Assembly (NCBI GenBank): GCA_020722315.1
Contig: DYLD01000004.1
Span: 1-45,284 of the forward strand
Reading direction: 5' to 3'
From: Syntrophus aciditrophicus
Lineage (GTDB): Bacteria; Desulfobacterota; Syntrophia; Syntrophales; UBA5619
DNA: 45,284 nt
The notes beneath the pieces were generated by a model, which saw nothing but the letters and a program-made list of their open reading frames with translations, had not been told where the DNA came from and searched no databases. The position numbers and the translations under genes were made by a program. Positions 8,790 to 45,284 of the stretch are shown here, piece after piece (positions within the stretch are counted from its first letter, which is position 1; each line of letters starts with the position of its first letter).

Positions 8790-9836
8790 ATGCGTGAAGA
8801 AAACGGTAAAACATGGATTACCAGTGCGGAACTTCAGGCCAAAACAAACATATCCCGTGCAACCATGAATAACTATATAAAAATGGGGATTATACCAAGA
8901 CCCGTGATCAAAAAGCCTGACGAGAAGCAGATCAAGGCTAAAAGGATTGGTTATTTTCACGATTCAGCCTTGGGCGCGATAAATCTAGTAAAACTTTATA
9001 AAAATCAAGGGCTTTCAATGAAAGAGATAAAGGAGCGGTTTCTTGGAGAAATCGACCGGAGCGAGAATCGTCAGGATCAGCTAAGCAGGAATAACAAAAA
9101 CCAAAGCGGGAATGAGTATCCGTCCGATCTCGAAGAAACCGTCAGGTCAGCGGTTCCGTCCTTTGTCAATGTTGCTGTACTGTCTACCTGTTTGGACGAC
9201 TCGGCGAAAATCCGTGCGGAGCTTCCAGGCGACGTTTATTTGAGTATTTTGATACGCTTACGTGGAATTGTTCAAGAGGTATGTCAGAATTACACGCGCC
9301 CAATTAGACAGAACTCGTCTGATAAGCTGTTATGGTATTTTGTTAAGGATCGAGATGATGGTTATCTTGCAAATGCTCTTGCATGCGCTGCAAAAATAAA
9401 GCAGCGGGTCGTTGATATGAACCGTCAGATGAAAAGCGATCAGCTGCTATTAAACGATATTTTTCTGAATATCGGGATATTTGAAGGACAAGAACATCTC
9501 GTTGTAGTTGCTTCCCCCGTTGCCGATGAAATACTGACCGCAGGAATTACCGGATCTTACGCTGAATTACTTTGTGAGGCAGGCAGGCGGGGATCAGTTT
9601 TAGTCTCAAAGGATTTTATCAATAAACTCGATGAAATCCAAAGGCAAAGGCTCAGGTACGGAATCCGTAAGCACATTGACGATTCGACTATTACGATCCA
9701 AAACACCTTTTCACGAATCAAGGATCTTTCGTTTCTGGATAAAGATCGTTACGAAAGGCTGGAGGAAATCCAAAATGTTGCTGTTGCTGAAATCTTGGAT
9801 TTTGGTGAGGAACCAACAAACCGGTCAAAAGGGTAG
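8790..9836 (+). CDS. MerR-type HTH regulator fused to a degenerate class III nucleotide-cyclase domain
   Basis: A 348-residue one-component regulator. Residues about 9-86 form a MerR-like winged helix: SAELQAKTNISRATMNNYIKMGII is the helix-turn-helix, then a wing, then GLSMKEIKERF, typical of the third MerR helix pair. After a polar linker (87-120), residues about 125-280 follow the class III adenylate/guanylate cyclase fold: FVNVAVLSTCLDD, NSSDKLLWYF, LNIGIFEG, AELLCEAGRRGSVLVS. The first metal-binding Asp is replaced (C134), the second appears kept (D178), and the Asn and Arg that stabilise the transition state are missing. The domain therefore probably binds a ligand or dimerises rather than makes cAMP. 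AAGAGGTGG upstream supports the ATG at 8790. It is divergent from the radical SAM gene, a likely target, and could also autoregulate. Confidence 0.78.
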   Translation: MREENGKTWITSAELQAKTNISRATMNNYIKMGIIPRPVIKKPDEKQIKAKRIGYFHDSALGAINLVKLYKNQGLSMKEIKERFLGEIDRSENRQDQLSRNNKNQSGNEYPSDLEETVRSAVPSFVNVAVLSTCLDDSAKIRAELPGDVYLSILIRLRGIVQEVCQNYTRPIRQNSSDKLLWYFVKDRDDGYLANALACAAKIKQRVVDMNRQMKSDQLLLNDIFLNIGIFEGQEHLVVVASPVADEILTAGITGSYAELLCEAGRRGSVLVSKDFINKLDEIQRQRLRYGIRKHIDDSTITIQNTFSRIKDLSFLDKDRYERLEEIQNVAVAEILDFGEEPTNRSKG

Positions 9837-9866: not shown

Positions 9867-10058
9867 GAGACCTTTGCGAAACTCCGCCTTGTCGCTCATA
9901 AAGCTTTTTCGACCCCGCGGCCTTTCGCTCAAGGCTTCAAAGGCTAAACGCTCTGGGAACGCTTACGTTCTTAACACCTTTAGAGCCTTGGGCTTCACGC
10001 CGGGGTACCCCGAAAAATCAATAAATTTGCGCTTCTGGCAGCCTTTTTCAAAGGTCTT
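9867..10058. repeat. MITE-like structured repeat element with inverted ends (copy 1)
   Basis: This non-coding block of about 192 bases fills the gap between two convergent genes. Its ends are inverted copies: GAGACCTTTG at 9867-9876 and, read on the minus strand, AAGACCTTTG at 10058-10049, each followed by A-rich sequence ending in GCC. Inside are a perfect palindrome CGGGGTACCCCG (10001-10012), a hairpin GAACG-CTTA-CGTTC (9957-9970) and a GCCTTT/AAAGGC pair (9920-9925 with 9939-9944). The right end recurs at the window edge (45230-45284) with 43 of 47 aligned bases identical, including a 24-base exact run. The run holds a near-consensus IHF site (10016-10028, AATCAA then four bases then TT). 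No transposase and no clear target duplication are visible. It may also end transcription from both sides. Confidence 0.72.
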
Positions 10059-10105: not shown

Positions 10106-12622
10106 TCAGAGAAAATGTTCCACAACGAGATTTCTTCCGTCCGTTTTCACCGTGACAGCTCCGTCATAATCGGTCCGATATACTTTTACCCCTTGGGAGG
10201 CATATCTTTTGACCGTTTCCCGATGAGGGAACCCGAAGACATTGTCTGATCCGCAACTGACAATGGCGATTTTGGGTTTAACCTTTTTCAGAAACTTGAG
10301 GCTGCTCGAAAAGCGGCTTCCATGGTGCGGGACGATAAGCACGTCGCTGTTCAAGTTCCAGCCGGATTCTATCAATTGGTTTTCGGCGTGCGACGAGATA
10401 TCTGACGTTAACAGCAAGCTTTTTTCTCCAAAAGAAAGCCTTATCACCAGCGATCGGTCGTTTTGTGTCGTGTGACGGATCTCCTTTGTTGCATCATCAC
10501 TGCCTGAGTTTGTGCAGTACGTATGATCTTTGCTTGGCGGGTTTAAAACCTTGAGCCGAACACCCGAGAAATCCCTTTCCGGTTCGTTGTTTGAAATAAT
10601 TTTCAGCTGGATATGCCTTTTTCTGATAATTTCTAGAAATGATGCGTATTGTTCGGTTGGTGCGTAATCACCATTACACCAGACCTCCCCGACCGTGAAA
10701 TTTTCGAGTATAAACAAAAGACCATTCAGATGATCTGCGTCGGGATGTGTCAGGACGACGGTGTCTATCGACGTGATTCTTTTATGCCAGAGGTATGGCG
10801 CCACAACGGTCTTTCCTATATCGAAGCTCTTATCGAAAAAACCTCCTCCGTCAACCAGCATCTTTTTCCCCTTTGGGAATTCCACTAGGATGCTGCTTCC
10901 CTGACCGACGTCTATAACCGTGAGAGAGAGGTTTTCTTGATGAATATCTTTTAGATAGGGGTAAGTCCAGCTTACCGTAAAGAAAAGCATAACAGCCAGT
11001 GGCGGTAACACGAACAGGAACGTGTTTGTTGTTTTCCTTTTGGTTGCGTTTTTGGATAAAAAATTCAGAACCAGGCCTGCCCATACCAACAAAATGTAAA
11101 AGGCTGCCACCTCCGCGATGCTTGGCGTGGGCACAAAAATTGAAGCCCAGGAAAAAGAGGCAAACCAGTCAATAAAATAGAGTGAAATTTTTACAAGCAG
11201 TTCTGCCAGGGAGATAATCAGGCCGGCCAGGAAAGATGAGACCGGCACTGCAACAACAATCGCCAGGGAAACCGGGATCGCAAGGATGCCGAGAATGGGA
11301 ACGCAAATCATGTTTGCCGCAATTCCGATCAATGGGATGCGGTTGAAATATAAGGTTATCAATGGCAGCGTTCCCAATGTCGCCGTCACTGAGGCGAGGA
11401 AAAAAATACCGAAACCCCTTAACGAGTTCTTGGCGATGATGATCAGTTTGCCCTTCATGCCCTGCGATGCCTTGTGTTGTACAATAGGCGGCAGAATTGC
11501 AATGAATTTAGGCATGAAAAATATCAGTGCGGCGACAGCAACGAAAGAAAGTTGGAAGGAGATCGCAAAGAGGGAATAGGGCGTTACAATCAGGATCAGA
11601 AACGCGGCAAAGGCCAAAATGTTGTAAAGATCTCCCTGTCTATCCAAGAGAAGCGCCGACAAGAATGCTGTTAGCATAATAGAGGCGCGTATAACAGAAA
11701 TCCCTGCGCCCGCGACACCTGTGTAAAAAATAACAACCAGGATAGACGAAACAACAGACAACTTGATTACGTTGAATCTCAGCAGGATATATTCGAAATT
11801 CAGCGCCAAACGTGCCAAAAAAAGTGCGAATGCCGCAACGATCCCGATGTTAAATCCCGAGATTGCAATAATATGTGTCAGCCCGGTTTTGTTAAATTTT
11901 TCCATTGTTTCGTTGCCTATCGCCTCTTGATTCCCCAGGATCATCGCCTGAATGATGCTCCCTTGGGTACCGGGCGATTTCACTGCGATTGTTTGGCGGA
12001 TGTTTTCACGGAATTGTGCCATTTTTGCCTTCAACGGATTTCCCTGTCCACGACGCAAAATCACATACGAAATTTCATCATTGAGAAACCCCCTGACCAG
12101 AATCCCTCGAAAGCGAAGGCCCCTTTCGTAATCAAAACCGCCCGGGTTTTTAAAGTTGCGTGGTTTTTTTAGACGTGCATGAAAACGGATAAAATCGCCG
12201 TATCGTAACGGTTGTTGACCATTCATGCTCAACAACACCTTTCCCGACACGTTACGGTAGTGTCCTTTTTCGAGCATCCTTGAGAGGCTGACCACGATGT
12301 ATGTTTTTTCAGGAGACACCTTGGGATTTTCAGAAATGACCCCTTCCGCGGTAATCTTTTTGCCATCAATACAGTGGACAATGTGGTTTGCCGGTATCGG
12401 TGGGTAAAGGTAAAGGTTGATCTCCAAAATCCCGAGAAAAAAAATACAAGCAAGAAACGCTTCGTAAACAAACGCCTCCTTTTTCAATAAGTGAAGGGAA
12501 AAAACCGCTACGAGCGAGGCGTTAAGGAAGGCCAAAACCAAAAAGTTATCAATAAACCAAATAGTTCCGCACCAAATACCTGCGATGAGAACCGCTGTCA
12601 TATCAACAAAAGGTCTTTTCAC
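10106..12622 (-). CDS. comEC: ComEC/Rec2 DNA internalisation channel protein
   Basis: Inner-membrane channel through which one DNA strand enters the cytoplasm in natural transformation. The 838-residue protein has the three-part family layout. An N-terminal DUF4131/OB-like segment (about 30-190) comes after two membrane helices. The multi-helix competence domain (about 220-520) contains HIIAISGFNIG and GAGISVIRASIM. The C-terminal metallo-beta-lactamase-like domain (about 565-838) has VIDVGQGSSILV, the metal motif HPDADH at 626-631 and VPHHGSRFSS near 770. The start is GTG 12622, supported by AAAGGGAAA upstream. It stands alone: comEA and other DNA-uptake genes are not in the window. It is divergent from pilS-pilR, whose target pili commonly take part in DNA uptake. 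Confidence 0.94.
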   Translation of the reverse strand: MKRPFVDMTAVLIAGIWCGTIWFIDNFLVLAFLNASLVAVFSLHLLKKEAFVYEAFLACIFFLGILEINLYLYPPIPANHIVHCIDGKKITAEGVISENPKVSPEKTYIVVSLSRMLEKGHYRNVSGKVLLSMNGQQPLRYGDFIRFHARLKKPRNFKNPGGFDYERGLRFRGILVRGFLNDEISYVILRRGQGNPLKAKMAQFRENIRQTIAVKSPGTQGSIIQAMILGNQEAIGNETMEKFNKTGLTHIIAISGFNIGIVAAFALFLARLALNFEYILLRFNVIKLSVVSSILVVIFYTGVAGAGISVIRASIMLTAFLSALLLDRQGDLYNILAFAAFLILIVTPYSLFAISFQLSFVAVAALIFFMPKFIAILPPIVQHKASQGMKGKLIIIAKNSLRGFGIFFLASVTATLGTLPLITLYFNRIPLIGIAANMICVPILGILAIPVSLAIVVAVPVSSFLAGLIISLAELLVKISLYFIDWFASFSWASIFVPTPSIAEVAAFYILLVWAGLVLNFLSKNATKRKTTNTFLFVLPPLAVMLFFTVSWTYPYLKDIHQENLSLTVIDVGQGSSILVEFPKGKKMLVDGGGFFDKSFDIGKTVVAPYLWHKRITSIDTVVLTHPDADHLNGLLFILENFTVGEVWCNGDYAPTEQYASFLEIIRKRHIQLKIISNNEPERDFSGVRLKVLNPPSKDHTYCTNSGSDDATKEIRHTTQNDRSLVIRLSFGEKSLLLTSDISSHAENQLIESGWNLNSDVLIVPHHGSRFSSSLKFLKKVKPKIAIVSCGSDNVFGFPHRETVKRYASQGVKVYRTDYDGAVTVKTDGRNLVVEHFL

Positions 12623-45229: not shown

Positions 45230-45284
45230 GAGACCTTTGAAAAATGGTGCCTGAAGCGCAAATTTATTGATTTTTCTTAGGTAC
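45230..45284. repeat. second copy of the repeat element, right end only, cut by the window edge
   Basis: GAGACCTTTG at 45230-45239 begins a stretch that matches the right end of copy 1 read on the minus strand (10058 downward): 43 of 47 aligned bases, including the 24-base exact run with the IHF-like core. It lies just after aspS, again outside coding sequence, in the opposite orientation to copy 1. The rest of the unit is beyond the window. Confidence 0.75.

Follow-up and report, generated by a model that had tools for sequence, protein, structure and literature searches.

A probable MITE with IS5-family ends in Syntrophus aciditrophicus, and the hairpin family that appears to fill its interior

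A 192-bp block in the genome of Syntrophus aciditrophicus is very probably one copy of a non-autonomous transposon (MITE) of about 190 bp, which has IS5-family ends (of the GAGACCTTTGCAAAA type), makes a 5-bp target duplication, is or was moved in trans and has as its interior a member of an old, phylum-level hairpin family. The copies share their ends, are flanked by target duplications, are numerous and are non-coding, and complete IS5-family elements with like ends and the same duplication length occur in relatives. A MITE with IS5 ends is the known part of this description; what is out of the ordinary is that the core is conserved while its ends can be exchanged. The customary picture of a MITE has constant ends around an arbitrary interior; in this case it is the interior that is conserved, across a phylum, and the ends that vary.

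The window, that is, the whole stretch of DNA that was analysed, comprises 45,284 nucleotides of contig DYLD01000004.1 (forward strand), and its features are collected in Table 1. Read from the sequence, the element has sharp limits at 9867 and 10058, starting with GAGACCTTTG and closing with CAAAGGTCTT; the repeat's two ends are GAGACCTTTG...CAAAGGTCTC, and alignments of copies from the same genome give GAGACCTTTG(C/A)(A)AAA as the family consensus of the left end. An earlier note, made from the letters alone, had described inverted ends, several hairpins and no coding capacity, and all of this was borne out: terminal inverted repeats lie at both limits, the fold of the 192-bp element beats 200 of 200 shuffles on each strand (z -4.35 and -4.21) and the element is without coding content. 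It sits between convergent genes, an ORF ending at 9836 (plus strand) and a ComEC-type gene at 10106-12622 (minus strand). The 348-aa protein encoded beside it, at 8790-9836, has no Pfam match. Direct reading also confirmed that the right end recurs after aspS: 43 of the 47 bases at 45230-45276 agree with its reverse complement, 24 of them in one unbroken stretch, and the position just after genes holds for both window copies. The flanks of the complete copy, ATAAC and ACTTT, form no exact target duplication. Within the window the 9-base end has 13 matches at up to one mismatch against 10.5 expected, which is chance level, so the repeat is proved only genome-wide.

Table 1. Features of the element and its second copy in the window
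Feature	Position	Strand	Basis or remark
Complete hairpin MITE copy, 192 bp	9867..10058	+	Boundaries common to other copies in the same genome
Left terminal inverted repeat, GAGACCTTTGCGAAA	9867..9881	+	Sequence and alignment of copies from the same genome
Inner hairpin, arms 9915-9943 / 9977-10005, 72% complementary	9915..10005	+	Fold
IHF-like sequence, 12/13 positions	10016..10028	+	Lineage-specific, not conserved in relatives
Right terminal inverted repeat, minus strand reads AAGACCTTTGAAAAA	10044..10058	-	Sequence and alignment of copies from the same genome
Second copy, first 55 bases, opposite orientation	45230..45284	-	Cut by contig end, 36 bases after aspS

How common is the repeat in its own genome? 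The assembly is a draft of 3.02 Mb in 422 contigs. The earlier note had proposed a search of the whole genome with 9867-10058, taking few copies as a sign against a mobile repeat, and the search found many copies with common boundaries. By BLAST, all 40 scored candidates (out of 299 first-look candidates) match, the query copy included; the other matches are 80-90% identical and nearly all about 190 bp long with common boundaries. The matching pieces number 44 in all, including four that are weak or short. Allowing one mismatch at most, the end pattern AGACCTTTGMNAAA was found at 186 + 206 = 392 sites on the two strands, whereas the reversed pattern, used as a control, gave 11 + 6 = 17. At two ends per copy, this gives an estimated total of somewhat fewer than 200 copies, or roughly one every 16 kb. 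Among the sites listed, at least 22 (counted by eye) lie less than 200 bases from a contig start, which indicates that the draft assembly breaks in this repeat. A 3-kb stretch (G000:C23:57251-60292) was considered as an autonomous element and rejected, since it consists of the ends of separate MITEs with ordinary-looking reading frames between them.

Aligning the copies, as had also been proposed, gave sharp ends and target duplications of one length. The alignment holds 30 copies, and the duplication test was run on the 28 that have a recognisable right end. The 5-bp flanks are identical in 15 of these 28, where 2000 shuffles of the pairing averaged 0.6 and never exceeded 5, and no copy has an exact flank match at 4 or 6 bp. 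In a wider set from the same genome the 5-bp duplication is exact in 19 of 38 copies and within one mismatch in 25; 35 of the 38 are 188-225 bp long and three are shorter (78, 87 and 130 bp). Pairwise identity has a median of 0.84 and a maximum of 0.95, and by this measure the copies are not a fresh burst.

The ends point to a partner. GAGACCTTTGCGAAA differs by one base from the end of ISNme1, and the ends of ISPg1 are similar; PMC4596501 gives these as GAGACCTTTGCAAAA (ISNme1, in its Table 2) and GAGACCATTGCA/TTCAAAGGTCTC (ISPg1), both of the IS5 family, and a consensus end GAGACCTTTG[CA]A is given in PMC7323717. Set against what defines an IS5-family MITE, the terminal repeats GAGACCTTTG(C/A)AAAA match those of ISNme1 and ISPg1 as well as those of complete elements in relatives, the duplication is 5 bp both in the MITE and in those elements, and the repeat is short, multi-copy and devoid of transposase coding. 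The complete elements, three in number, have such ends and exact 5-bp duplications, identified by eye (L164, GCGGG; L165, GATGG; L175, ATCAG), and their proteins all score above the NCBIfam IS5 cut-off (NF033581). DUF772 transposases are present in 11 of the 21 genomes of the family. The earlier note had proposed looking for a transposase with the same ends, and related genomes have one with near-identical ends in the form of these IS5-family elements; in the organism's own draft, profile searches found no intact IS5-type transposase with these ends. That draft has one DDE_Tnp_1 protein, whose ends are by eye of another type, no match to DDE_Tnp_1_2 (PF13586), and, among DUF772 matches, a single 110-aa fragment. 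Multi-copy insertion sequences are easily lost from a draft of 422 contigs, so the absence of a partner there is weak counter-evidence. We infer that transposases of the IS5-type group moved the MITE in this genome and that the partner may be missing from the draft; the MITE would be, or would have been, mobilised in trans by an IS5-family transposase recognising ends of the GAGACCTTTGCAAAA type.

The window copy matched relatives' sequences by BLAST in part only: the inside was the same and the ends were different. A search with one relative's core found matches in 18 of the 21 genomes of the family, S. aciditrophicus included. In 60 more stretches that were read, some of them from sites already covered, the copies form one long, imperfect hairpin, with an outer part that is conserved, TTTTTCGACCCTGC...GGCAGGGTnCCCCGAAAAA, then a variable inner stem, then a conserved asymmetric loop, AACTCGC..GCTCAnACA. 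A regular expression collected 74 distinct cores (copies missed by the expression are absent), of which five or six are of the S. aciditrophicus type and two, being without usable flank, have an arm score of 0. Six of the 74 were excluded for reasons of length, flank or N, leaving an alignment of 68 copies; the structure was predicted from 62 of these rows, with five S. aciditrophicus-type rows and L102 left out. Across the 68 copies, 90.3% of cells pair and both sides have changed in 23 of 44 pairs. Covariation scores 0.203, compared with 0.099 for the shuffles and no more than 0.082 for slid controls, and none of 500 shuffles reaches any of the measures, though the structure came from the same alignment on which it was scored, which favours it. 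With a covariance model, core matches were obtained in 81 of 155 genomes from the order and in 33 of 395 genomes sampled from the phylum (E <= 1e-6). Because long hairpins can inflate covariance scores, the loop motif was checked separately: ACTC..TCAnACA is present in 58 of 63 aligned copies and in 2 of 63 reversed ones. In one set of 63 matches, 61 were read; L190, which coincides with L239, and L214, an incomplete match, were omitted. The inside thus reads as an old structured hairpin element common to many related bacteria, far beyond this one genome, and the window hairpin (Table 1) appears to be a divergent, own-lineage version of the core, as S. aciditrophicus-type rows can be aligned with the relatives' cores.

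Rfam 15 has no family with a match over the window's element, and in 11 further loci that contain core copies no family scored up to its gathering threshold, which rules out a known Rfam RNA in these loci. The plasmid and phage records gave no match, and no paper on this core was found among open-licence PMC papers. Several observations were made along the way. A very regular long hairpin at 1043-1097 of locus L069 matches animal microRNA models (E about 4e-5, below gathering scores) and is probably another palindromic repeat. In a well-assembled genome (G023, L220-L239) most copies have a further conserved flank, gttcgcgggggcgcgaccgggggtt, past the core, and the element is longer there. L119 and L090 have short extra palindromes, such as GGGGACACCTTGCCGCAAGGTGTCCCC, inserted within the right-hand portion of the core element.

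The earlier note had also placed an IHF-like core at 10016-10028. The match is there, and within one mismatch, its best level, it is found in 24 of 34 full-length copies of the genome; it is found within one mismatch in 0 of 68 relatives' copies, so the site is not a conserved part of the element. An IHF-based element is therefore ruled out, the site being lineage-specific.

What changes between lineages is the outermost sequence. In a genome from another family of the order (G031) the copies end in GAGAGCTTTG, with exact 5-bp duplications at L242 (TCAGG) and L240 (TCTGC) and none at L241 and L245, all by eye. In G016 the same core lies inside the ends GGTGGTGACTCA...TGAGTCACTACC. Six of its copies have recognisable ends, and it is on these six that an 8-bp duplication class rests: over the lengths 4 to 10 bp, flanks agree within one mismatch in three copies at 8 bp and in one at 5 bp, and at no other length. 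The arms vary too: in many copies they are unlike those of other copies yet pair within the copy. Arm pairing exceeds the 99th percentile of cross-copy pairs in 23 of the 74 copies; in the remaining 51 it does not.

Copy-specific pairing is seen best where copies have settled. Among 31 loci tested, 10 genomes from four families have the core in the guaA-carB interval, oriented like the genes, with carB not seen directly after the core in two of the ten (G068, where the locus has no carB motif, and G105, where it follows 690 bases on); G009 and G013 are further genomes with the core at this place. Among 12 guaA-carB copies the arm score averages 30.5 within a copy and 13.6 between copies, and the own partner arm scores best in 9 of the 12 rows: the arms co-vary across families. 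In many genomes guaA and carB are nearly adjacent and the core is missing, as in that of S. aciditrophicus and in G011 and G004, which have 18 bases between the two genes. The pattern may reflect common descent with losses or repeated insertion; both are possible. The guaA-carB gap also holds shortened or rearranged forms of the element (L297, L299 and L301, in G006, G018 and G019), which is how copies decay, and in L320 (G006:C128) a second near-perfect palindrome, GGGGTCAGGTCTTTAAAATTAGCG..., adjoins remains of the core element, as though one palindromic repeat had been inserted into another. Five genomes of the family have a core copy at a further common site, ahead of a putative rfaD-like epimerase gene.

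How could a non-coding hairpin last so long? The long imperfect hairpin would be the persistent unit, brought time and again under the control of any transposase able to recognise the inverted repeat at its outer limits. Either selection on the fold or correction templated by the hairpin as the DNA replicates would maintain the complementarity of the arms, and the conserved unpaired bases may keep the hairpin from turning into a perfect palindrome. A bolder form of this, which we offer tentatively and hold to be rather doubtful, makes the hairpin core the selfish unit in its own right. As an ancient structured DNA it would survive its vehicles, exchange ends between lineages (IS5-type with 5 bp, another type with 8 bp) and use templated correction to rebuild the arms on its flanks, leaving every settled copy with private arms that pair closely.

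The strongest competitor bears on the selection half of this scheme only. Arm complementarity might be kept by a mutational process, template switching within a quasi-palindrome, and not by selection, an explanation that is quite possible although we would not expect it to prevail. Long arms that differ between copies and pair within each are what such a process would give, and it also agrees with the near-equal numbers of G-U and C-A cells (27 and 29) in the guaA-carB copies. Against it, correction by itself would do away with unpaired bases, and yet the core has kept conserved ones across the phylum.

Alternatively, the core may be a functional cis-acting RNA between co-transcribed genes, concerned with mRNA processing or stability as ERIC is in Yersinia, with mobility secondary. 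Copies of relatives that lie in co-directional gene pairs run along the gene direction in 47 cases and against it in 20, a count drawn from 131 distinct copies from other genomes (28 unplaced, 36 between convergent or divergent genes) that includes orthologous and hence non-independent copies, with genes called by a simple codon score; L236 is omitted from the gene-context, strand and stability counts as well. Persistence of the core between guaA and carB in four families, with co-varying arms, and beside the rfaD-like gene in five genomes would also fit. However, the G-U and C-A counts just given, and a G-U share of 6.1% and 6.0% on the two strands, mean that wobble pairing points to neither strand as the RNA; stability is higher for the minus strand in 105 of 128 copies, contrary to the orientation bias; the copies of S. 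aciditrophicus are without such a bias (7 against 10); and the guaA-carB site is empty in many genomes, this one included. An RNA function as the main role is accordingly unlikely, and the parity of G-U and C-A, the equal strand shares and the more stable minus strand together favour an element that acts at the DNA level.

Of the three readings that the earlier note had put forward (a MITE, a REP/BIME-type mosaic or a transcription-end element) only the MITE stood, on common boundaries, IS5-like ends, 5-bp duplications, copy number and non-coding content. An intrinsic terminator or other transcription-end element is very improbable: both window copies lie directly downstream of a gene, but elsewhere the flanking genes may be co-directional, convergent or divergent, and some copies precede start codons, which gives it no specific support, and mobile boundaries with target duplications are unexpected for terminators. 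REPINs are short hairpins tied to a Y1 (RAYT) transposase, without target duplication. A REP/BIME (REPIN) element moved by such an enzyme can be virtually dismissed here, since, palindromic, intergenic and multi-copy as the repeat is, and with one Y1_Tnp gene in its genome, it is a unit of about 190 bp with exact 5-bp target duplications and IS5-type ends, and its core has 4, 20, 16, 8 and 11 matches in G001, G006, G008, G017 and G020, where Y1_Tnp was not found.

With a conserved hairpin core inside a MITE, two questions become accessible to tests: how a hairpin that encodes nothing can persist longer than the transposases moving it, and whether selection or replication-linked correction keeps long palindromes paired; filled and empty guaA-carB sites are a natural experiment for this.

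Several known systems invite comparison. ERIC (IRU/RU-1) of enterobacteria is likewise an imperfect long palindrome, intergenic, present in many copies and regarded as a MITE. It is described in PMC2229807 as 127 bp long, with 5'-TA-3' termini and an orientation-dependent effect on mRNA stability. The present element, from another lineage, differs from that description in its length of about 190 bp and its GA...TC termini, as well as in its IS5-type ends and 5-bp duplications, and it is not an ERIC. BrickBuilt/MITEPgRS of Porphyromonas gingivalis, together with ISPg1 and ISNme1, has the same kind of terminal inverted repeats. The likeness rests on the ends: set side by side by description, the interiors are a structured core here and a minisatellite in BrickBuilt, whose duplications are reported as variable (PMC4596501). 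Correia/NEMIS elements of Neisseria are also MITEs with a long hairpin; according to PMC2229807 they act in regulation through RNase III cleavage, contain an IHF site and have a 24-bp TIR with TA termini. That TIR and those termini set NEMIS apart by description, and the IHF-like site found here is not conserved in the family. YPAL/RU-2 of Yersinia, a 168-bp intergenic palindromic element with target duplications, inserts at or next to dyad symmetry (PMC2229807), a habit that recalls the copy-specific arms of the present element. By description, its duplications range from 3 to 26 bp and it has no terminal inverted repeat, in contrast to the fixed 5 bp and IS5-type ends seen here. Geobacter uraniireducens, which may lie in the same phylum as S. 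aciditrophicus, has an element named Chunjie that resembles ours, by description only, in size and in being an intergenic MITE. Chunjie is given as 178-235 bp in PMC10969869, and it could be a relative, which would make the family partly known. Taken as a conserved core with exchangeable ends, the element would, by analogy, be closest in behaviour to ERIC, YPAL and NEMIS.
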